64,000 bases of DNA from Thozetella sp. PMI_491 (taxonomy: Eukaryota; Ascomycota; Sordariomycetes; Chaetosphaeriales; Chaetosphaeriaceae), in the NCBI GenBank assembly GCA_021432635.1, contig MU270029.1:1032844-1096843 (forward strand). The letters are read 5' to 3'. Under the pieces are notes generated by a model. That model made no database searches. It was not told the DNA's origin and saw nothing but the letters and a program-made list of their open reading frames with translations. The translations under genes were made by a program, and so were the position numbers. This document shows, piece by piece, positions 4,751 through 63,868 of this stretch (within the stretch, counting starts at the first letter, position 1; each line of letters opens with the position of its first letter).

Positions 4751-5224
4751 ATGGTCAAGCCCAATGACGCCATCGCTCTGGTCCTGGCCCTCATTATCGC
4801 TATCGTCCTTGTTTTCACGTGGGGTATCACCCGGATGTTGCGCTTGAATCTGGGAAGCAGCACCACAAGCACGTCCTACAAGACATGGACAGAGTCGATC
4901 GACTCGGATGGCCCACCCCCACCGCGACCACCTGGGTGGAGGCCCCCGGCGCCAGGGTTCGTGAACATACCTCCACGCCCGCCACCTCCACGTGTCGAGG
5001 TTGTTGCAGGAGGCGGTGGAGCGGTGAACGTTGGGGGTGGACAAGGAGGTAACGGGAGGGTGAATGTGGTGAATGTTGGGGGCGGGCCAGGAGGAGGTAA
5101 CGGGAGGGTGAATGTGGTGAATGTTGGGGGTGGACAAGGAGGAGGTAACGGGAGGGTGAATGTGGTGAACGTAGCCCCGGTACCGGGGCCTGGGGCAGGC
5201 GGGAGAGTGAATATACCGGGATGA
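4751..5224 (+). CDS. Signal-anchored Pro-rich and Gly/Asn tandem-repeat protein
   Basis: An uninterrupted 157-codon gene starts at ATG 4751. Residues 7-28 form a hydrophobic segment (AIALVLALIIAIVLVFTWGI) that fits a signal anchor or uncleaved signal peptide, so the rest is probably outside the cell or in the secretory lumen. A short Ser/Thr linker is followed by a proline-rich segment (PPPPRPPGW, PPRPPPPR) and then a glycine-rich tail built from repeats of the type GNGRVNVVNVGGGPGG, 16 residues long. The DNA repeat period is 48 bases. I do not recognise a named family. Low-complexity fungal wall or surface proteins look like this, but function is unknown. The repeat makes copy-number variation between strains likely. 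Confidence 0.65.
   Translation: MVKPNDAIALVLALIIAIVLVFTWGITRMLRLNLGSSTTSTSYKTWTESIDSDGPPPPRPPGWRPPAPGFVNIPPRPPPPRVEVVAGGGGAVNVGGGQGGNGRVNVVNVGGGPGGGNGRVNVVNVGGGQGGGNGRVNVVNVAPVPGPGAGGRVNIPG
5048..5191 (+). repeat. 48-bp in-frame tandem minisatellite
   Basis: The sequence GGTAACGGGAGGGTGAATGT starts at 5048, 5096 and 5144, exactly 48 bases apart. The copies are nearly identical, which suggests recent expansion or concerted evolution. Each copy encodes one 16-residue GNGRVNVVNV-type unit of the host protein. The third copy is only partial before the C-terminal tail. Confidence 0.9.
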
Positions 5225-46051: not shown

Positions 46052-47997
46052 TCATTGCACGTGCTCTTTCTCCTCGGCCCTCGGGATTCGCACCATAGTG
46101 GCAGTGATGAGAGCTCCAACTAAGGCAGCCCCAAGGCCAAACCACCATATGGCCCGGAGACCGTTCAATCCAATCTCTCCACTAGGGAGTGGGTCGATCC
46201 TGGCCCCAATCGATTCACTTATAGACGTCATGACGGCGATGGTGAGATTTTGGACCGTCACCAGCAGGCTCCCAGCGGAGCCTTGGTAGGATCTCGGCAC
46301 ACTTGAAGTGATGAAGATAGCCGCAGCAGCAAAACTCAGGTCCGGGCCAAAGGTGGCAAGAGCGACGCCCGGCATCGAGAGTGCCCAATAGTTCGAGTCG
46401 GGGGTCTGTGGAAGGAAGAAGACTGAGCCCATGGCAAAACACACCATGCTTGTGGTTAGGATCCAGTGGCCCGGCACCAGGTGCAAAGTCCTGGATACGA
46501 TCCAGGCGGCAAGCACGCCAACAATGGCGTTGGGCAGAATGTAGAGTGCCGTGGTGAGAGGGCTCGCTCCTTGATATCGCTGCCAGAACTGGATGGCGTA
46601 AAATTGCCACGCGCCACCTAGAAGCAAAATCTTAGTCCACCGATTCTACGGTTCAAAGAATACGCAACCGAAGACTTACAATAGCCCCCCAAGCCGAGGA
46701 AGTAGGAGACCAGAAGGGCAGCGAACCCCGGCGTCTTCCACAGTCCATTCGGAATAAGTGGGCGGGGGACCCGCTGCTCTACATAGTAGAACAGCAATAG
46801 CAGCGCAAACCCTAGGATGATGGTGACATATGTATACGGACTCCAGTTAGCCGATGATCCTTGGGTGAGTCCAAAAAGAATCAAGGAGCAGCCCAGAGAT
46901 GATAGGACAGCACCCGGATAATCGAACTGGCGCATTGATGGCGCCTCGGCGTGGATGTTGTCCTTAGCTGGTGCCAGAGTAGGGATAGTGAGATAGGCAG
47001 CAAGGGCACAAACACCAAGAAAAATGGCTGTACTGCCAAAGATCCAGGGGAGATGCGCGCCGAGCGCCGCGCCCTGGACGCATCCGATCCAGAAGCCGAA
47101 CGGCGCACCGGCCGCCATCATGGAGAAAACGCGTGTCTTCCGGATGCCGGGATTATACACTCGCCCGAGAATGCTCATCGAAGACGACACGAGGACGCCG
47201 ACAGCCAGGCCCTGCATGGCGCGCGCGACGAAGAAGAGAATGGTGCGATCTGGGGTCACAGCCACGGCCGTGACTGCGTTCCAGACAGCCTCCCACAGAA
47301 ACGCCCCAACCATGAGGGGCTTCGGGGGGGCGAGGTCGGCCAACGAGCCCGAGATGATGACGGACAGGCCACTGGCCAGGACGGACGACCCGGTGATCCA
47401 GGGGGTCTGGGTCGAGGGGATGGCGAGCGCCTCTCGAAAGAGTGTCTGAGTGACGAGCACATGCCCCAGGGTAAGCGAGAATATGACCTGGCCGGCTGTG
47501 CAAGTGAGGACAAAGATGATCTCGGCAAGGAAATTCTTGAGCTCCGGGGGAACCCCCTGCGACACGGGGAGCCGCGGACTTCCATGCTCCTCCGCCAGAC
47601 CAGCATGAGATGGACGACGGACGGAAGCGGTCTCAGTCTGCCTGCTCCTCACCCTGACTAGCTCGAGTATGGGGTTGGCTAGCGTCTCCTCGACTGTGGT
47701 GATGTCCCGACTGTGGGCGAGTGCTTGCGCGAGGGCCTTGCGGTCGATACCCGTTGTAGTAGGTGGCTGAAGGAGCGGGGCGGGAGACGCTGCTCCGGAG
47801 GGAAAGTCGAACGGGGTTGTGGGATTGGAGTCATCTCGTCCCAGAGGCGTCTGCACTGAAATATCCTTGGTCTTGCCGTCATCCGAGCAACCTTCGTACT
47901 CTTCGTTTGGGACGATCCAGATACCGGCGGCATGCATCAGTTGCATCGGAATTGGTTCCCTGCTTGCGCCGAACGACGGCCGCGATCCTGTCGCCAT
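46052..47997 (-). CDS. MFS transporter, drug:H+ antiporter type
   Basis: Exons (minus) 47997-46680 and 46617-46052 give 627 residues. The frame upstream opens with TTG only, so ATG 47997 (MATGSRPSFG) is used. The first 155 residues are cytosolic and polar. They are followed by about 12-14 hydrophobic segments, starting at FLAEIIFVLTCTAGQVIFSL, with the MFS loop LADLAPPKPLMVGAFLWEAV and FVARAMQGLAVG typical of the DHA2 or related subfamily. The intron interrupts a segment reading LGLGGYCGAWQFYAIQFW. The protein is expected in the plasma or vacuolar membrane and to export or import small molecules. It lies about 4.4 kb from the putative RiPP precursor gene, so export of the product or self-protection is a possible role; this is not shown by sequence. 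Confidence 0.88.
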
Positions 47998-49786
47998 TTT
48001 TGCCTCGAGGTGTTGTGCGCACAACTGGGGAGTCGAATTTTCGTTCGGTGCCGGTTGGCTTCCTTGCGAGAATGGAGACGATAAGATATCTAGATACCTA
48101 AGAAACCCAACGATCCACAGTCGGTGAGATTTTTCACTACCTCACACCCTATCATCGGATGACGCCAATGGTGCGAGATAGGTGGGGTACCTTTCCGATT
48201 CAGGGCCAGTTTGTGCGCCGCTAACCTGTTTTTAGTTGCAGTATCACTAATCGCGGCGCGAAATGTCGGCGCGGATATCTCCTAGTCACGCATGTGCTGT
48301 CCACGGCTCCTCCCTAGCCTCAAGGGTGTGGGGGGCTTGTTGCATTCTGAGTGGGTAAAACGACAGCGAGGTTACATACAGGCTGTTCCGTCGGGCTCAG
48401 TGCAAGCAGCTACAACTGCTCGATAGAAATTTTATCGGCCAAAGCTAAGTGGCGGCTGGATGGAGCAAAACTTGGAAGAATACAATGCAATGAACAGGTC
48501 GGCCAGATGTTGTCTCCCTTCCGAGAACGCCAAATCGAGCGCTTCGAGGTTAGTTTCGAATATGCAGCTAGAAGCGTCTATGCGAAGTACGGAGACCCTC
48601 TCCTAAAAGGCTCCACAGGTCGTCCCGGAGAACACCCAGCGCCACAAATGCAACTCTTGGGTCTCTAACCCTGCTAGTATTAGGAGCTCTCTTGGAGCCC
48701 TGATTGTAAATAAGATGTTAGGTCTAGATAGATTCGCGCCACGTTGGCCAGAAATAGAGCGCGACATGCTACTAGGCAGTCAAACAAGAAATGAGGCCTA
48801 TATGTCTTCCACGTTGATATATCTAATTGATCACAGATTCTCTTATTCGATCCTATAACTTGGCCTGGTTGTCCGAATGCTCAAGTTACGATTGTTTGCT
48901 CACTGTAGCGAAGCCACGAAGCCTACACATTTTATTCAACCTTAGATAATTGTAACTAGGATGAGGGTAGTTATTTAGCATTGCCCGGTTTTAACCTCGT
49001 AATAGTGCCTATTTCTAAATCAATTAACATATGAAAAAAAACGGCCTTGAATGCGAGACGTGCTGGACACGATAGCAGCGTTGGGTTACAAGGCCCAACA
49101 TAGAGACGGACGAGTGCAACGGATCTAGAGCATCCGCTATCTATTGATATGCCATCCTATTTTAAGGAATTGTAGCATAGATGGTGTTTGAAACGATGTA
49201 AACGATGGCGAGCGACAGCTAGCAGCCAGGGGGCAAATTGCCCAAGATCTAATAGCCAAGTATCACCACACTCACAACAACCCAGTTCAAGCTCGGTCTT
49301 TTGATGAATTAATACTACAATAAAAAATCAACACGCAGTAGGAGGTCATGGAGGGTAGACACGATTGAGCCCCTGATCTCTTACAAGGCGAAAATAACTG
49401 TAACCTTGTGATATCGGTGTTTACACCATTGCGTGCGGCTGAAGTCTGAGCGAGGCCAGCGCCAGAACAGCCAATCAAATACCAATAAAGTGATCCCTTC
49501 ATGTAACAATGCCAATTCAGCACCCGAGTCCTTCTTGGCGGGATTGGCTAGGCTATGAGATTGCCTGACATGCATTGGATAAGACGGGGGGAATGCCCGC
49601 CGCCTTCGCTCGATACGAAGGTGTCGCACCCTGTACCATCATTTAACGCCATATCCACGACCCCTGCATGCCTTTGGTCCTGAACATCTGGGCTCAGAGG
49701 CGAGTGGGCGACTTTTCCTACAACAAACATGTAGCTTGGGTTTGAGCCTTGACATCGACATTCAACCAGAAAGGCAGGCGCTTGAG
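47998..49786. other. Gene-free, partly AT-rich region
   Basis: About 1.8 kb. The first part is the MFS promoter. The part from 48680 to 49330 is AT-rich with no sustained ORF and looks like mutated repeat. A 105-codon ORF at 48351-48668 lacks recognisable content. Confidence 0.4.
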
Positions 49787-50860
49787 ATGGCGGCCTCTAT
49801 TCCAACTAATGCGCCGGAAACCCACGATGGTATCACGACTTCATGGTTACCTATGTCCACCGCCTGGCCCTCTGTTTCAGGATGCGACGCTGCGATGTGG
49901 AAATTTGTCTCTACTGCACTGGTTGCGTGGGACCCGGGGTATGGACTCTCAGTGGAGCCAAGCCTCGTATGCCACCCGCCGCAGGTCACCTCGTGGTGGG
50001 ATGCCGATCGCATGGGAGTCAATACCAAGGCCACGGCCTACAGCCTAGGGCCGGTAGTCTGCCCTGTAGCATACTCTACTGTGTCGATTAGCGAAAACGG
50101 CGCTGGAAGCACGATGGTGGCGTGCTGCCCGACCGGCTATACCTTTTCTTCCCTTGGCGGCTTCAAGAGCGCAGGTTTGGTTGGGGAGTGCATCTCGAGG
50201 TTGTCCCAGGGACAAGTGGTATCTTTTGCAACAAGAGTGGACAACGACTGGGTCAAGACGACCTCGACAGTACAAACAGGCTCCGCAGCCTATGCAGTCC
50301 AAGTTAACGGCTGGCTGATTCCGGCGGTGACTCCCAGTCCCACTGCTATTCCAAAATCTTTGGTCTCGTCTTCGACGGATAGCACAAGAGCAACAGTCGA
50401 CTCACACCCTGTGGACGGCTCGCAATCGCCGGGCAGTTCACACTCGTCGTCCGGCCTAGGCGGTCAAGCAGCCACAGGGGGCGCGGTGTCGAGCTCGGGC
50501 TCAAGCACAGGAACGGTTCCTGGAGCCACAAATGGAGCTGGAAGCAATGTAGGGGCGGCTGTTGAGACAACAGGCGACTCGAGCACAGGGCTATCAACGG
50601 GAGCTAAGATCGGCATTGGTGTCGGCGTGCCTATCGGCTTACTAGCCATTGCAGCCATTTTCTTTGGGCTCTGGCTTTCCCGACAGAATAAGAGAAAGAA
50701 TACAGTAGCGCCCATAATGGCGACACCGCCTTATGAAGTGCATGGCGACCACAAATTCCCGGTGTTTCCGAAGAAGGTGGAGGAGCTTGAGGTGCCGCCG
50801 GCACAACTCCCTACTCCCTACAATACCGCAGAACTTCCCGCACAACACTGGCCTCGATAA
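49787..50860 (+). CDS. Ser/Thr-rich single-span cell-surface protein
   Basis: A single-exon gene of 357 residues. The frame starts upstream with TTG; I use ATG 49787 (MAASIPTNAPE). The N-terminal half has Cys and Trp residues in a fungal pattern (TSWLPMSTAWPSVSGC, VVCPVAYSTVSI, ACCPTGYTF, GECISRL) and is followed by a Ser/Thr/Gly-rich low-complexity stretch that is probably O-glycosylated. One transmembrane segment (IGIGVGVPIGLLAIAAIFFG, about residues 288-307) is followed by the basic cluster SRQNKRKN and a Pro-rich cytosolic tail. This is the layout of Mid2/Wsc-like sensors and similar surface proteins, although no WSC domain is seen. A classical N-terminal signal peptide is not evident, so the 5' end may be incomplete. 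Confidence 0.72.
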   Translation: MAASIPTNAPETHDGITTSWLPMSTAWPSVSGCDAAMWKFVSTALVAWDPGYGLSVEPSLVCHPPQVTSWWDADRMGVNTKATAYSLGPVVCPVAYSTVSISENGAGSTMVACCPTGYTFSSLGGFKSAGLVGECISRLSQGQVVSFATRVDNDWVKTTSTVQTGSAAYAVQVNGWLIPAVTPSPTAIPKSLVSSSTDSTRATVDSHPVDGSQSPGSSHSSSGLGGQAATGGAVSSSGSSTGTVPGATNGAGSNVGAAVETTGDSSTGLSTGAKIGIGVGVPIGLLAIAAIFFGLWLSRQNKRKNTVAPIMATPPYEVHGDHKFPVFPKKVEELEVPPAQLPTPYNTAELPAQHWPR

Positions 50861-52389: not shown

Positions 52390-52955
52390 TTAACTGATTT
52401 GAATATGACCTTTGTTCTTCTCTTCGACGACATCGTAATTGAGAATCAAGGCCCCTAAGCACAGTTCAATATCAAGGTACTTCGTCGATTTCAGGCATAT
52501 GGCTCACCTCCAGCGCCAACATAGCCTGCTTCGACCTCGCGCTTTGCCTTCTCTTCCACAACATCATAGTTGAGGATGAGTGCGCCTCCACAAGACTTAG
52601 CAAAATCAAGCTAGATGATGGGAGGGGGAGTAGTTTTACCTCCGGCGCCCACATAGCCTGCCTCGACCTCCCGCTTGTCCTTTTCCGCCACAACATCGTA
52701 GTTAAGGATAAGTGCTCCTGCATCGAGCTTAGTAGAAGCGACCGTGAGCTGAAAAAAGGGTCTCCCGCCTCACCTCCAGCGCCAGTATAGCCGGCCTCGA
52801 CTTCTCCACGGGGAGCTAAGAGAGAATTCAGATTGGTTCTTGCGCTTCGTCCTGTTAATATACGTACCGGCGGCATTATCAATAGGTGTAGGGAGAGCAG
52901 CGACGAGAACGACTGCAAAAGCAGAAGCTGAGAGCATCAAATGACCGAACTGCAT
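52390..52955 (-). CDS. Kex2-processed repeat precursor, candidate dikaritin-type RiPP
   Basis: Exons (minus) 52955-52868, 52815-52774, 52717-52640, 52585-52508 and 52454-52390 give 116 residues. Residues 1-20 are a signal peptide (MQFGHLMLSASAFAVVLVAA). From residue 34 a 26-residue unit is repeated three times: each begins EVEAGY(T/V)GAGG, runs through GALILNYDVV, and the first two end KDKR (56-59) and KAKR (82-85), Kex2 sites. The third ends in KNKGHIQIS. Each internal exon is exactly one unit, and all four introns are phase 1, three of them at the same Gly-Gly point. This is the hallmark of secreted repeat precursors of fungal RiPPs such as ustiloxin and phomopsin, and it lies divergent from a UstYa-family gene. 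The core peptide is unassigned: the invariant YDVV or Y(T/V)GAG are candidates. The repeated exons also make gene-finder failure likely. Confidence 0.82.
52508..52717 (-). repeat. Tandem exon-intron duplication within precursor gene
   Basis: Exons 52717-52640 and 52585-52508 are both 78 bases and highly similar; the shorter exons 52815-52774 and 52454-52390 match their 3' and 5' parts. The exon-plus-intron period is about 132 bases, so whole units were duplicated in the genome, introns included, rather than by slippage in coding sequence alone. Confidence 0.85.
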
Positions 52956-53836
52956 TTTGAGGAGAAAGTAGCGGATGAATAACTAGTGGAAGAGAAAATC
53001 TTTAGCTGTGAATACGACAACTTGGTGATCAGAGCTATCATGTTAGTATATTTGGGCTTGCTACCTCTTAAGTACGAAGTGAGGAAGCCTGTCTCGATGA
53101 TAGTGCAAGTACATCGCTCGGCTAGGCTAATGTGTCGATTATGCCATCCATGCGTGTGACTAACCTCCAGACGCTCTTCGAAGCGTGCGGAGCCTATCAC
53201 ACGAAATTCGAATTTCGAAATGATACCAAAATGAGTTAGATTTCCTAAGGCGGTCTCATGAACGGGGAGCTCGGCTACCTGCTTCACGGCTGGGCCGGTT
53301 TGTCTGCATATGCAACCCAATCAACCTTCGCCTCGTGCGACTTCGTGGCTATAGAAGGGGTAGTCTTACAGCCAAAGAACGGCGGCGAAATGGCTACCCC
53401 CTCACGCTCTCTGCATGAAAGGATTCAATATTGACCTTGAATGGAGTTGAGACATGTGTTACGAATGCTCTTGTGACGATCGGCATTGGATAAAAGACGA
53501 GCCAGAACGGAAATTCGGCAAGTTTGGAGGCGTATGGTGTGCTTGGCGCTTGGCGATGAGCCTGTCCCGGCGAGCAGGCAGCGGATGACTCGCTAGCACT
53601 TCTTGATATGGACGGTCAGTGGGTCCTTGTCCTTGCGATGTGGCTGACAATTCATTTTCAATGGCGTTAATGCTATGACGGTAATGAGCCTCGGGTGGTC
53701 ATATCTATTCCCTAGATCCCGGATAGACTGACGGATAATTCCAAAGCCTTCTCAGAGGTAGCTCGCTCCGTAGCCACAGAACCCTCGCCCTCCGTCTCTC
53801 ACTCGAACGGAATCTTCAGCTTCGTTGAGATTTACA
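52956..53836. promoter_or_regulatory. Divergent promoter region of precursor and UstYa genes
   Basis: About 880 bases lie between the ATG of the precursor (minus, 52955) and that of the UstYa-family gene (plus, 53837). No ORF here is convincing. In known dikaritin clusters precursor and oxidase genes are co-expressed, so shared control is likely. No specific binding site was identified. Confidence 0.5.
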
Positions 53837-54804
53837 ATGTATCCCAAGCTATACCGAGATTATTCTCCGATCAAGAGCTCTACAGATGATGATCGAGAGA
53901 GCGATTCATTTCTTCCTCGGGATGCCACTGGCCGTGGGGACGACGACCGTTCTTCGCGGTTTAGGACACTGCGGGGGTATCTCTGGCCTCTGTTCTTTAC
54001 CTCCATCAATATTCTTCTCACCGCCACGACGGCTGGGTTGCTAGTCGCTAGAAATCTGGGCTGTGACTGTAGCGAGAAGGCACTAAACACTTATTGTAAG
54101 GACACTTGCTATCTCATTTATCGCCCGCATGGTTACCGACCTGACTTCGAAACATCTTTATAGCACCGGTGTACGACAAAATCGATATTAGCATGCATGA
54201 AGTACACTTTAACAACACGTTCTGGGTGGATGCTGTCCCGTCCATCTACCAGAAGCGACCTAGCCCAGAGGTAGATATGGCATGGGGGCGCATATCTGAT
54301 ACACACGGCCTTCGACTTACGGAAGAAGAACTTATCAAGATGGGAAAAGACCCTGAGAGCGTCTGGCCTTGGCCCGCTGGGACAGATGGCTATCAAGGAG
54401 CGGAACCTACATATGCCGGCTTGATCGATGTCTTTCACCAAACCCACTGCTTGGACATGCTTCGACGCACGGCCTGGCCGGAGTACTACGGCGACCTCAA
54501 GGCCATATATAGCAACATGACGTTCCCGTTCGAAGACCATCTCTTGCACTGCCAATACCTTCTTCTCAACGTTATAACCTGCCACGCCGACGTGGAGGTA
54601 GCGACCTTTCACAAGATCAAGGGTTTCAAGGGCCCGTTTGTGAACTTTGAGATGGACCGGAAGTGTAGAAGCTTCAGCGATATCCTTTCTTGGAAAGAGG
54701 AAAATCAGGTTGAGCCAGATGACCGGTTCTTTGAGACCCCTGAAGGAATTGTGCAGCTAGAGGCTGTAGGGCTAGCTCTGCCTTACCCTCAACAGAAAGT
54801 TTAG
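53837..54804 (+). CDS. UstYa-family (DUF3328) oxidase
   Basis: Exons 53837-54095 and 54164-54804 (68-base intron) give 299 residues. The upstream frame opens with TTG, so ATG 53837 (MYPKLYRDY) is the start. One transmembrane segment lies at about residues 49-71 (LWPLFFTSINILLTATTAGL), preceded by Arg residues, so the rest faces the secretory lumen. The two diagnostic HxxHC motifs are present: HQTHC (178-182) and HLLHC (212-216), the latter followed by QYLLLNVITCHAD. In ustiloxin and related pathways such proteins catalyse oxidative cyclisation of peptide side chains in the secretory pathway, and genome mining treats them as markers of fungal RiPP clusters, although some act in other clusters. 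Divergent orientation beside a repeat precursor is strong context. One NxT site (SNMT) may be glycosylated. Confidence 0.93.
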
Positions 54805-55081: not shown

Positions 55082-56773
55082 TCAAGCTCCAAGTTTGAAA
55101 CCTCCGGTGTTGAGCAACGTAAAGACTCCATCCGGGTCGTAGGCTGTGCGAATCTCCTTCGCTCTCGCGACATTGTCCTGGTTCATGCCGGCAAATGGAT
55201 CTTGCCATTCCCCAGCATCGCCCATATAAATAAAGTCATTTGCGAGGCCCTTTAGCTGGTTGAACTCGTGCATACGGGTAATGAGGTTCTGGGACCAGGA
55301 GGTAACGCGAGCATCGTCAGCCTCGTTGGCCCAGCCCGTTGAGAGTTGGAAGACTAGGGACTTTGTTAGCAGACAGAAGAAGTGTTAGCGGATGGGTTCT
55401 TACTAATTAGATTTTCACTGTCATCGAGTCCCCACATGTTACCGATACCGTTGGTCTTGGCGACGTGGGCGGCGCTCGCGGGAGCAGCGTTCAGGACGAA
55501 GCTAGGAAAGAGGCCCTCGACATCGGCAATCTCTTCGAGGCAGGTCTTCCAGATCTGAAAAAACTGGAAGATCTGATCGGCATCTAGCTTCATGGTCTTG
55601 TGGCTGAACATAACACTATTCCATCAAGTTAGACTCTTGGCTTGTGGAGCTTTACGTCATCAACGGATACGGGGCCCAGATAGAGCTCACCGGAACATCT
55701 GGTTTGGTGTGTCGAACTGATTGTGCCAATCCGTCGTGTTCATGATCCTGTTCAAAGCGAGGGTGCTTGGTAGTGCTGTGAAGTTTTCGAAGCGGGCTGG
55801 GGGCGAAACCTCGCTCTGCTCTGTACCCCAGAGGCTAGCCGAAGCCTCTTTGGTAGTGAGGTTATATCCGATGTTGAAAACAGCACCAGCGGCAATATCG
55901 GATGTCGTGCTCGAGATAAAGTCACAAACGGCTTTGATATAACCTTGAATTTGATCCTCGGCAAAGTTCTGGATGGTGGTTGACATGGGCCCCTGGTCGA
56001 ATGCTTGGAATTTGAAGTTGGTGACTACGCCAAAGTTATTGGCTCCGCCCTTCAGTGCCCAGAACAGATCTCGGTTGGTTGAGTTGTCGGCAACGACCCG
56101 GGTACCGTTTCCGAGAACGACATCGTAGCTGAGGACGGTGTCTATAACGTAGCCGTACTTGTTGTTCCAGTAATGCCAGCCGCCAATCAGACTCAAACCG
56201 GGTACGCCGATGGTTTTCAGCCGACCGCCAACGCAGTACAAACCGTAGGGTTGTAGGGCGCCGTAAACGTCAGCCCACCGCGCACCTGGGCCAACATCAA
56301 TCGTCTTGCTGCTGGTGTCGACATCAAGCTGTACAATTCCGTTCAGAGCAAGGAGGACGCCGTTGTCTATGTTGTTCGAGCCGGGGAACTTGCGCCACAG
56401 TTAGTATTTTTTGACGCAAAGTAGAGCGCGGGAGCAATTCCGGGAAACTGGTTACATTCATATGGCCTCCTCCCCTGACAGCAAATGGGGTTTGGGTATC
56501 ATGGATGATTTTGAGAGCAGTGGCGACTTGGCTAGCCTCGGTAGGTAAGAAAATACAGGCAGGGCTTTGGTCGCTTCGGACATCCCAGTACTCGATTCGC
56601 TCGGCGCTGTAATTCCCAGAGTCCGGAGTCAGAACCAACTCCCCGAACTCAGACCCTAGCTGGGTGCAAGCCGCCTGAACAGATTCTGCAGTGCAATTCG
56701 TCTGTCGTGTGTGCGGCGTTGATGCTGACACTAGGCCTGCGGTAACAACCGAGGAGAGGAACTGAGTGCGCAT
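55082..56773 (-). CDS. Secreted FAD-linked oxidase, berberine-bridge type
   Basis: Exons (minus) 56773-56456, 56388-55691, 55615-55404 and 55353-55082 give 499 residues. The frame upstream opens only with TTG; ATG 56773 begins a signal peptide (MRTQFLSSVVTAGLVSA). The PCMH-type FAD domain has the RGGGHMN motif with His104, the usual covalent FAD attachment residue, and continues FPGSNN, VGPGARW, GLSLIGG and GNGTRVV. The C terminus has the BBE domain signature: NQDNVARAKEIR followed by YDPDGVF. Several NxT/NxS sites suggest glycosylation. Such enzymes oxidise sugars, alcohols, amines or natural-product intermediates outside the cell or in the secretory lumen. It is convergent with and only about 280 bases from the UstYa gene, so it could oxidise the same peptide; that is inference. 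Confidence 0.92.
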
Positions 56774-60480: not shown

Positions 60481-62934
60481 TCAGAGATGCTCTATACCGT
60501 ACATATTTGCCTCCTGGATGAAACCCCCACTAGCGTCTGAGATGTACCAGTCCAGCCAGGATGAGGGTAAGATGTTAACACCACCATCCAGCTCCGTCGC
60601 AGGAGTGATTAACCCAGGCTCCAAGGTGGAGGTAGAGGGAATCGCGCCCTGAGATGAGCGGATATCTGGTGCGCCTATGTGCGCATCTCGTGATAAATCG
60701 GAACTCAGATTCGTAACAAGTCCGCCGGCCGCGCCGCCTTCCAGGAGCTCTGTTATAGTCATTGGCCGCAGCCCGTGTGCCTCTCTAGCCCTGGTATCCT
60801 CCGGAACCGCCAGTTGTTGCTCGTGATCTAAATCGCTCGCGGTTTGCGCGTCAAGTTGTGCTTTAATTATATCCCTGCTTCGACGTATACCCGGCGTCTG
60901 AGAGCATTCAACCTCCATCATCTTCAGCGTCGTTGCTAGCCGCTCGATAGCGGCAGCAGACACTTGAGGGTCGGGATGTCGAACCTGCTGCACCTCGATC
61001 GTGGCTGCAGTATAGACGCAGTAAGATGTCAAATAGGTTTGGTTGCGGAACCAGAATGTGCGGCCATAGGCACGGAAGAATGCATTCACCTTGATAGCTT
61101 CTTCCGTACACACTTTGTACGCGAGGTGGAAAAGGGCGTCCTCGGGAGCACCAGTGGAAATTACTGAAGGGATGCGAAAGAAGGGCCGATAAAGAAGGAT
61201 CAGGGACGTATGGTACAGAATGCTGTGCGTGGTCAGCGGGATTTCCATGCAAATGAGGGTAGTCGGAGCGTACTTGAGTGAGAAAACATGAGGCGGTGGA
61301 CAGGAGGGCAATGAGTCGATATCATCCACGCGGATGTAGCTCGGTAGGCCTTGATGAAACGATCTGAACTTCTTTTCCAGTGCCGATACCGTCTCCGTAT
61401 CGAGATTCACGACCCTTCGATTGTATATGGTGTTATACATTTCGTGGATCAACTTGTAACTATTAGCGAACACAATGAAAACACCACTCGGACTCAGTAT
61501 CACTCACCTTGGATTGTTCACCAAAGTGTGAGAACGTGGTTGTATTGTAGCTTGGTGTTGGTGGATAGTGAGTCTCTGGGTCCTTTTCCAAGTAAAATGG
61601 GAACCAATCCTCCAAGTCGTCAGAATTATCGACTATAGAGTCAGAAACGATATCTTGTCATCGTGCATAGAAAGGGCTACTAACATAATGACAAAGGAGA
61701 GTAGGGTATGTCAGTCAACGTTGGTGGACGACCAAGGGTTAAACTAATTGACCTAAACCTCTGTTAGCCTGTAGATCGTTAGTTGAGTTGCGAGTTGGTT
61801 CCTACTTGTCCCAGGCATAGGCAGATATGTAGAGCCGCTTCCGGACCTCCAAGTCGTCGGGCTCCAACTTTTCAAGCAATTCAACTCCGGCCTTAGGTAG
61901 GTGGAAGCCCAAATGCTGTAGCATTCGGATAGCCTGGCGAACAGGTTAGACATAAAGACTCATAGCACTAAAATCCAATCTCACCATCCCTGTGTATAGC
62001 CATCCCTGGCTGTTCTTTCCGAGCGCGCACTGACGACCTCCTAGAATGAGGAGCCCTTGAATGGTAGGAATCTGAGGCCTCTCAAGCTCTATCTCTTTGA
62101 GAAGCAGCAGCTTGGCCTTCTGGAGGAAGAACTCGCCGCGATCAAACATTGCAAACCTGGGGTCGTCTTGTCGCGTGTGCCGGCAAGCGTGGGCGTATAT
62201 AACGTTTAGGAGAAAAGGGGAGAAGTAAGGGCCACCAAGGACCATGTCTCGAGTGAAGCCTGGCGAGAAATCAGGACTGAGAATTCAATTGGAAGGGAAT
62301 GCACCTACAGCGGCGATAAACGCAGTTGTGCAGAGGAGCTTGCCAAGTCCAGTATATCTGAAGCAGTGTCGATGCACTATCTGCATCTAGCTCGGTACTA
62401 GAGCGCAGATTCGCATAGATGGCTCGGTCCCAGGATTTCTGGAACCTTGCATTGGAGAGCAGCCATTTTCGATGGTATGCTTCATTGGCTGTGGCTTTGG
62501 AAGCCGCCTCTTGAGTTTCCTGCGTCTGGGATGGAGCAACATGGAATCTCGAGGTCGCGCCGTAGTATTGCACCTACTCCAGGAATCGGTAAGCAGATGA
62601 ATGATGATGGACGGGAAGGACATACACTCCCATTCTCGTCCACACTCAGGCTCGGCGTCGTTCCCTCCGTCTCCGGGGCCAAAGCCACTGTATGGTCAAT
62701 GGAGTTCTGGCGGTCTCTAGCCGAGGCCCGTAATGCCTCCTGCAGCTCGGCCACCCTTGCTTCGGATCGCCCCAAGGCGTTGGATAGACGGGAAAGAGAT
62801 GCATCCGGCGCCGCGTAGGAGCAGGTCTCACGGCATCGCTTGCAGGCGTCGCATGTCGGCTTCTTTCCGTCACATCGCACCTTTCGCCTTCGGCAAACAA
62901 GGCACGACAACCCGTACTTCCGGCTCGTGCTCAT
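60481..62934 (-). CDS. Zn2Cys6 transcription factor
   Basis: Exons (minus) 62934-62626, 62573-62309, 62259-61985, 61933-61806, 61752-61685, 61632-61508 and 61452-60481 give 713 residues with all joins in frame. The binuclear cluster uses C11, C14, C21, C28, C31 and C38 and is followed by a coiled-coil-like stretch (SEARVAELQEALRAS). The fungal-specific transcription factor domain follows, recognised by VQYYGATSRFH, GGPYFSPFLLN, YAHACRH, GWLYTGMA, AWDKSISLTLGRPP and IPYSPLSL. The start is the ATG right before the zinc cluster. It lies at the right end of the candidate RiPP region and may be the pathway regulator, though Zn2Cys6 genes are common. The seven exons include a 68-base one. Confidence 0.92.
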
Positions 62935-63868
62935 CGTCCTCTTCCACTCATTGTTGTCGTCGGTAAGATGCCGAGGGGAAGTGGGAACGGGGGCGTCAGA
63001 CTAAAAATATGCCCGAACTATTGCCGCGTCTTACGGTCTCGCTAGCCTGTCCGCGTAGGGGGATAACAGGCTTTCGGTCCTCGCCCTTCTACGCACAGGC
63101 CATTACTTCTTAGCGCTGACAGGCCAGGCACCTTACAAAACAAGCAGCTTGCTTTTAAGGACGTTAAGGTACAGTGCATATATATTACGGAGCTGTTTCA
63201 AGTTCCATGGGTTATTAGACACTATCAAATACGGCTGTGACGGTGTCGGTAAAGTCAAATTCGAAAGCCGCAGTTATCATATTTTAAATAGCGTAATGCT
63301 TCTGCGTCAGACATTTTAAGGTAAAGTCTCTGTCTCCTGAAACACTACGCTGGGTTTGCTATCTTCTATAAAGGCTGATACATCTACGAAGCCCTAGGAG
63401 CCCTTAATAGAGCATTTACCTGGAGCTTATGTTATATTCCTCACAGGCTGATCACAAAGAATCAGACTCTACAATTTCCGGCTATGTAGAGTATTTTTGA
63501 AAAACTAGCTAGTCATAGGGATCGTAAGAAGGCCATCGATTCACCTAAATAATCCTACAGAACTTTAACAGCCTACACTGCGGCCCGTTTTTTCGCCCTA
63601 AAAGGCTAGCCTGGAGCTTGTACATATATTAGACCATTAGCTAAGAGAATATTCTTCCAAGCTCTGACATCTGCATTAGACCATGCAGCTTATAGACGAT
63701 TTACGAATTTAACAGTAGCACCACGAGACGTGCCGATTGAGTCTGACAAATCGCCATGTTCGCGGAAAATTAGATAATCCACCCACATTTAAATTTTATA
63801 ACCTTGCAGACCACCTGGAAGGTGTATATAACAGTACATATATAATAGGAGGGGGGGTGGGGAGGCGG
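62935..63868. other. AT-rich tract, probably decayed repeat
   Basis: The first 100 bases are the regulator promoter. From about 63100 to 63860 the sequence is AT-rich, rich in TATA and TAGA words, and has only one 63-codon ORF without content. This is the composition expected of repeats altered by repeat-induced point mutation. Confidence 0.45.

Follow-up and report, generated by a model that had tools for sequence, protein, structure and literature searches.

A candidate Kex2-processed repeat precursor with introns between its repeats beside a UstYa-type oxidase gene in Thozetella sp. PMI_491

A divergent precursor and UstYa gene pair

The analysed window comprises 64,000 nucleotides of contig MU270029.1 from Thozetella sp. 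PMI_491 and contains a pair of divergent genes (Table 1). The minus-strand gene (52955-52390) was modelled by splicing of the window sequence. The model consists of five exons, all open and in phase, and four phase-1 introns of 52, 56, 54 and 53 nt, and yields a secreted-looking protein of 116 residues. The N-terminal part MQFGHLMLSASAFAVVLVAALPTPIDNAAAPRG is hydrophobic, with a top 12-residue mean of 2.6 in an analysis of hydropathy only. It is followed by three near-identical units, EVEAGYTGAGGALILNYDVVAEKDKR, EVEAGYVGAGGALILNYDVVEEKAKR and EVEAGYVGAGGALILNYDVVEEKNKGHIQIS, with the consensus EVEAGY(T/V)GAGGALILNYDVVxEKx. The hydrophobic core, GAGGALILNYDVV, is rich in Gly. Each unit contains two Tyr, so that a cross-linkable residue is present in the core, and Trp is absent from the precursor. 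Kex2-type dibasic sites (KR) were found at the joints between units 1 and 2 and between units 2 and 3. No dibasic site is present ahead of unit 1 (APRG) or behind unit 3 (KNKG). Consequently, of the three repeats unit 2 alone lies between two KR sites; the criterion for Kex2-processed repeat proteins (KEPs) as given in PMC7329392 is at least three repeats of at least eight residues between Kex2 sites. The three-unit, secreted-looking precursor with two Lys-Arg joints that the original prediction had described was thus reproduced.

Introns 2-4 split the three units at the identical codon (GAG|G), so that the inner exons are two symmetric pieces of 78 nt. Intron 3 (52639-52586) ends in an unusual, weak GAG acceptor. 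The window also encodes an annotated protein, hypothetical protein GQ53DRAFT_763115 of Thozetella sp. PMI_491 (P0001). The window yields P0001 letter for letter when intron 1 is retained as coding sequence and 52801-52718 is removed as the second intron; the last two introns are the same as in the five-exon model, including the GAG acceptor of 52639-52586. Due to the different reading of the first two introns P0001 lacks the N-terminal half of unit 1. In the annotated model (52718-52867 of the window) the read-through of intron 1 and the donor at 52801 leave the first repeat hidden in the public entry. P0001 therefore supports exons 1 and 3-5 of the five exons originally predicted and disagrees on exon 2. 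We favour the five-exon reading of exon 2 because the EVEAGYxGAG repeat recurs in it.

Table 1. Features of the window around the precursor and UstYa genes. Positions count from the first letter of the window.
Feature	Position	Strand	Basis
Precursor exon 1, signal-like N-terminus	52868..52955	-	Spliced model; annotated P0001 agrees
Precursor exon 2, N-terminal part of unit 1 (EVEAGYTGAG)	52774..52815	-	Spliced model; missing from annotated P0001
Precursor exon 3 (78 nt), C-terminal part of unit 1 with KR, N-terminal part of unit 2	52640..52717	-	Model and P0001
Precursor exon 4 (78 nt), C-terminal part of unit 2 with KR, N-terminal part of unit 3	52508..52585	-	Model and P0001
Precursor exon 5, C-terminal part of unit 3 with stop codon	52390..52454	-	Model and P0001
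Intergenic region of 881 bp separating the divergent start codons; may be a shared promoter	52956..53836	.	Position
UstYa exon 1, N-terminal part including the hydrophobic segment	53837..54095	+	Frame translation
UstYa exon 2, domain including both motifs (HQTHC, HLLHC)	54164..54804	+	PF11807, 138.6 bits
FAD-linked oxidase (BBE/EncM-like), intron-containing, convergent with UstYa	55082..56773	-	PF01565; PDB relatives PpBBE-like 1 and EncM
MFS transporter	46055..48141	-	MFS_1, 55.6 bits; second piece 26.5 bits, below cut-off
Zn2Cys6 protein	near 62482-63000		Pfam

The plus-strand gene (53837-54804) is intact and encodes a 299-residue UstYa protein that has a single hydrophobic segment. The motif HQTHC was located at residue 178 and HLLHC at residue 212, in agreement with the predicted divergent UstYa/DUF3328 gene with both HxxHC motifs. 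The intergenic region may serve as a shared promoter of both genes. Structure prediction of the UstYa domain from a 7-row alignment gave a mean pLDDT of 51.8, and a sequence search of the PDB with UstYa revealed no convincing relative, one match lying at E 0.46.

The FAD-linked oxidase is a possible tailoring enzyme, a guess from its position, and the MFS transporter is possibly an exporter and a candidate member of the cluster. No tyrosinase, NRPS or PKS domains were detected in the 28 ORF stretches of the window scanned with Pfam, out of 61 that are 110 aa or longer. The precursor itself gave no Pfam match to a pheromone family domain at E 0.01; Gsf2 alone appeared, below the cut-off. A repeat scan of the window also recorded a Gly-rich tandem repeat at 5027-5167 (VNVGGGQGGNGRVN...), which is not precursor-like. 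A long open frame at 49583-50857 has no Pfam match; it looks like a membrane-anchored surface protein, being rich in Ser, Thr and Gly over one stretch and hydrophobic in a segment close to its C-terminal end.

Conservation of the repeat unit and of its UstYa partner

Comparison of the unit pairs over 24 shared codons gave 15, 18 and 15 base differences (11, 13 and 12 in third positions) and 3, 3 and 1 amino-acid changes. For these few codons dN amounted to 0.091, 0.097 and 0.067, and dS to 1.14, a saturated and not computable value, and 1.68. The units appear to be old copies held alike at the protein level under purifying selection, the direction of which is clear. A chance repeat was set aside because third-position changes dominate and dN is at most 0.10 with dS above 1 among the units, a pattern that speaks for genuine coding exons. 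Introns 2-4 show weak similarity to one another, with 4, 6 and 0 of 200 composition shuffles reaching an equal score; joint duplication of each exon with its intron would be expected to leave such a trace.

In the genome of Thozetella itself the precursor unit matched three exon stretches, all inside the window. The same search with the Trichodelitschia units described below gave no match and missed even the window's own exons. The DNA motif GGNTAYNNNGGNGCNGGNG had 39 matches compared with 28 for the reversed control, and three of the 39 are the window's own units. The precursor gave 17 pattern matches to viral contigs, none of them confirmed, and its first 29 residues had no relative among plasmids, both collections being poor places for fungal genes.

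The search for the 26-residue unit suggested in the original prediction revealed relatives in Trichodelitschia, probably in Aspergillus hancockii, and in metagenomes. Three proteins were found by single-sequence search and ten, those three included, at E ≤ 10 by profile search. P0002 from Trichodelitschia bisporula (Dothideomycetes) contains the units EEGYTGAGGTLIVTYDSKLEKVKR and KEGYTGAGGALILNYDAALEKR. P0008 from A. hancockii (E 0.0086), with the units GYTGAGGVAILNGIELPASKR and GYTGAGGVAILNGVDLPASK, is probably a relative of the precursor unit; KR sites are present in both proteins. The matches P0009 (E 0.056) and P0010 (E 0.07) are less strong. Thozetella belongs to the Sordariomycetes and Aspergillus to the Eurotiomycetes.

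P0003-P0007 are metagenome proteins with a precursor-like unit. Judged from the proteins only, they resemble exons with translated intron sequence on either side, at the position also found in the window gene (GAGG then K; before GALILNYD). In P0004-P0007 acidic-Ala runs, i.e. dipeptide spacers, extend from KR to GYTGAGG. They resemble the STE13-trimmed spacers of alpha-type pheromones described in PMC6339444, and EVEA of the window precursor is a weaker version of such a spacer. A Tyr ahead of xGAGG was observed in P0002-P0010 and in all units seen (GY; EY once, in P0009). The second Tyr (NY) is replaced by Gly in A. hancockii. These few sequences suggest that the first Tyr is the required one.

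The UstYa protein search yielded seven proteins, including the window's own fragment P0011. Both the precursor relative P0002 and the UstYa relative P0014 are found in Trichodelitschia, apparently in one genome as judged by an indirect match, not a map. When P0014 was searched against the Thozetella genome the window UstYa was the best match with 262 bits, followed by 122 bits for the next; for P0012 from Apiospora the values were 259 and 108 bits. A 34-row tree placed the window UstYa, P0012-P0015 and P0017 in one group (100/100), which stands apart from 28 UstYa stretches of the Thozetella genome that represent 19 of its 20 fetched UstYa regions. The rows comprise the window, the search relatives and the own genome, with no characterised UstYa among them; two pairs of own-genome stretches overlap, L047 has no row, and P0016, nearly identical to P0017, was left out. 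The clade includes proteins from Apiospora, Zalerion and Talaromyces. The Talaromyces protein P0015 bears the automatic name 'Cyclochlorotine biosy...', which refers to a non-ribosomal pathway; this is a database label and not functional evidence, and it counts against a purely RiPP clade. Precursor and UstYa seem to be co-inherited between fungal classes, since P0002 and P0014 both occur in Trichodelitschia and the reciprocal bit scores point to the window UstYa.

Further repeat precursors in the Thozetella genome

At least 149 UstYa-matching stretches were counted in the genome (150 of 203 candidates scored; exons counted separately). With so many UstYa genes the adjacency of a UstYa gene alone is weak evidence. 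Twenty UstYa regions of 9.9 kb each were fetched and scanned for repeated peptide words near dibasic pairs. Repeat precursors were visible by eye in 12 of them, giving 14 secreted-looking repeat proteins (two each in L032 and L040, one each in L033, L034, L037, L038, L041, L042, L043, L046, L049 and L050). None was seen in the other eight regions (L035, L036, L039, L044, L045, L047, L048 and L051). The cores of the 14 precursors differ, as illustrated by EANNVDVVLKAENWGTKR, SEAQSPDILYNNPAGWGKR and ENWNAAAWSNFVKSYVDG. Apparently, the Thozetella genome is rich in loci combining UstYa with a repeat precursor. Two of 17 control stretches of 3 kb (L017 and L019) contained repeats, which were not precursor-like by eye; this comparison is rough because the control stretches were shorter and chosen by the DNA motif GGNTAYNNNGGNGCNGGNG.

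The joints are mostly monobasic in L034 (KGR), L038 (KPR/KAR) and L041 (KER), and these are therefore not strict KEPs. In L041 (2500-3200, minus strand) a Cys-containing repeat (TPEPCQGSLCKADTAYAILKER) with monobasic, not dibasic, joints adjoins a UstYa gene. Two precursors on the minus strand of L040 (500-1300 and 7500-8400) have an intron between successive repeats. For the precursor AGSAYEDIADAIGARRDVAEEVVTRPPLR phase-0 introns of 50 nt were picked among several possible GT-AG pairs, and the precursor WYATGPNEDAVGKRDVESS has a 57-nt exon and phase-1 introns of 55 and 64 nt. Thus, the design of the window gene is not unique in this genome. The introns between repeats in the window and in the two L040 precursors help to explain the misannotation of such genes.

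Proposed pathway and comparison with known systems

We regard it as probable, at roughly 70%, that the locus encodes a Kex2-processed repeat precursor whose trimmed peptides UstYa cross-links in the manner of the dikaritins. Such a compact RiPP locus would consist of two, perhaps three, genes. The precursor would enter the secretory pathway, where Kex2 would cleave after Lys-Arg at the unit joints. A carboxypeptidase, probably together with a dipeptidyl-peptidase, would then trim the fragments to a Gly-Tyr-x-Gly-Ala-Gly-Gly...Ile-Leu-Asn-Tyr-Asp peptide. The membrane-anchored UstYa would cross-link this peptide oxidatively, most likely via the conserved Tyr of the GY motif, and the neighbouring FAD oxidase may act after UstYa. 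The computed linear [M+H]+ of unit 2 is 2466.240 without KR and 2038.049 when EVEA is also removed; for GYVGAGGALILNYDVV it is 1580.832. Each cross-link would shift these masses by -2.016. The originally predicted class, a Kex2-type repeat precursor combined with a UstYa oxidase, is supported by the anatomy of the locus, the purifying selection and the apparent co-inheritance in Trichodelitschia; the cyclised product is what we infer from it. In the survey of Umemura 2020 UstYa genes are most frequent right beside KEP genes across fungi (PMC7329392).

A considerably less probable explanation is that linear, unmodified, pheromone- or hormone-like signalling peptides are secreted and that UstYa is an unrelated neighbour. 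The core is unusually conserved between classes, as for a receptor ligand, the STE13-like spacers of P0004-P0007 resemble those of alpha-type pheromones (PMC6339444), and in the survey of Umemura 2020 a DUF3328 gene was nearby in only 1758 of 7878 KEPs (PMC7329392). Nevertheless, no pheromone family was matched at E 0.01, the precursor contains no Trp, and its relatives recur together with those of UstYa in Trichodelitschia. Moreover, the same survey describes mating-factor genes as almost never adjoining DUF3328 genes (PMC7329392).

It is unlikely that UstYa and the FAD oxidase serve another, non-ribosomal or polyketide product and that the precursor is adjacent by chance. UstYa proteins do act outside RiPP pathways, in polyketide and non-ribosomal ones, according to a lichen survey (2025, PMC12048977), and both the cyclochlorotine name of P0015 and the many UstYa genes of the genome would agree with such a role. 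The 28 scanned ORF stretches (of 61) were, however, devoid of NRPS and PKS domains, and the precursor-UstYa pairing is seen again in Trichodelitschia. Less likely still are surface-active or structural peptides, repellent-like and self-assembling, which UstYa would cross-link or hydroxylate in order to stabilise the assemblies. The Gly-rich, hydrophobic core GAGGALILNYDVV would suit them, and Kex2-released peptides acting on the fungal cell wall are mentioned in PMC6339444, yet the precursor has just three units and assembly is without direct evidence. A relic or gene-model artefact, with exons never spliced into protein, is hardly credible given dN ≤ 0.10 with dS above 1 among the units, open exons in phase throughout and relatives in other fungi, despite the weak GAG acceptor of intron 3, the lack of outer dibasic sites at the first and last units and the different annotation of the first part.

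Dikaritins and DUF3328-linked KEPs are a known kind of pathway (PMC7329392, PMC6339444, PMC12048977, PMC9233826, PMC9769878), and the intron-per-repeat build is the newest aspect of the locus. The core strings were not found in the main texts of the open-access papers searched, in line with the original remark that the unit was not recognised as a described core; supplementary tables lay outside this search and may list the protein. Among the papers listed for the NYDVV and GYTGAGG-type letters the titles were unrelated to fungi. The main text of PMC7329392 contains none of the terms Thozetella, Trichodelitschia, hancockii and 'intron', and no paper came up in a literature search that combined Kex2 with intron, exon and repeat-unit terms.

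Tentatively, and at somewhat less than even odds, we propose a broader reading, an undescribed UstYa-modified peptide family whose long, glycine-rich core (GYxGAGGxxILNY) is conserved in Sordariomycetes, Dothideomycetes and probably Eurotiomycetes. Precursors of this family would be built from one symmetric phase-1 exon per repeat; being intron-split they would be misannotated and missed by protein-based KEP screens, which may partly explain UstYa clusters seemingly lacking a precursor. If this holds, symmetric exons would let the unit number change by in-frame exon skipping or duplication, and introns between repeats would be a concrete reason for overlooking precursors beside UstYa genes. 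A core family of this kind, apparently inherited together with a UstYa clade of its own in more than one class of fungi, would differ from most KEP repeat types, which are confined to one genus according to PMC7329392.

Among the known systems ustiloxin and phomopsin have a signal-bearing repeat precursor, to which the Thozetella precursor with its signal-like N-terminus would correspond, and they share Kex2 sites, UstYa-type oxidases and a core Tyr with it (PMC7329392, PMC9233826). They have two and five DUF3328 proteins, respectively, and a tyrosinase (PMC7329392), and their core (EDYXI, PMC6339444) differs from that of Thozetella. In contrast, the Thozetella locus has one UstYa and no tyrosinase in the 28 scanned ORF stretches. 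The repeats of gigA are 27 residues long, close to the 26 of Thozetella, and the epichloecyclin core is unrelated to the Thozetella core. The asperipin-2a core, FYYTGY, is likewise unrelated to GYxGAGGALILNYD. The epichloecyclins also derive from a multi-core Kex2 precursor, and Tyr-Ile cross-links are described for them (PMC9233826). Asperipin-2a resembles the Thozetella system in its repeat precursor and Kex2-type sites and needs no tyrosinase; it likewise has a single UstYa/DUF3328 protein (PMC7329392). Its accessory gene encodes a reductase (PMC12048977), whereas a FAD-linked oxidase is found at the Thozetella locus. The general class is shared with the DUF3328-neighboured Kex2-processed repeat proteins (Umemura 2020, PMC7329392; Le Marquer 2019, PMC6339444). 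The survey of Umemura 2020 starts, as described there, from annotated proteins (PMC7329392), whereas in Thozetella the annotation misreads the repeat gene.
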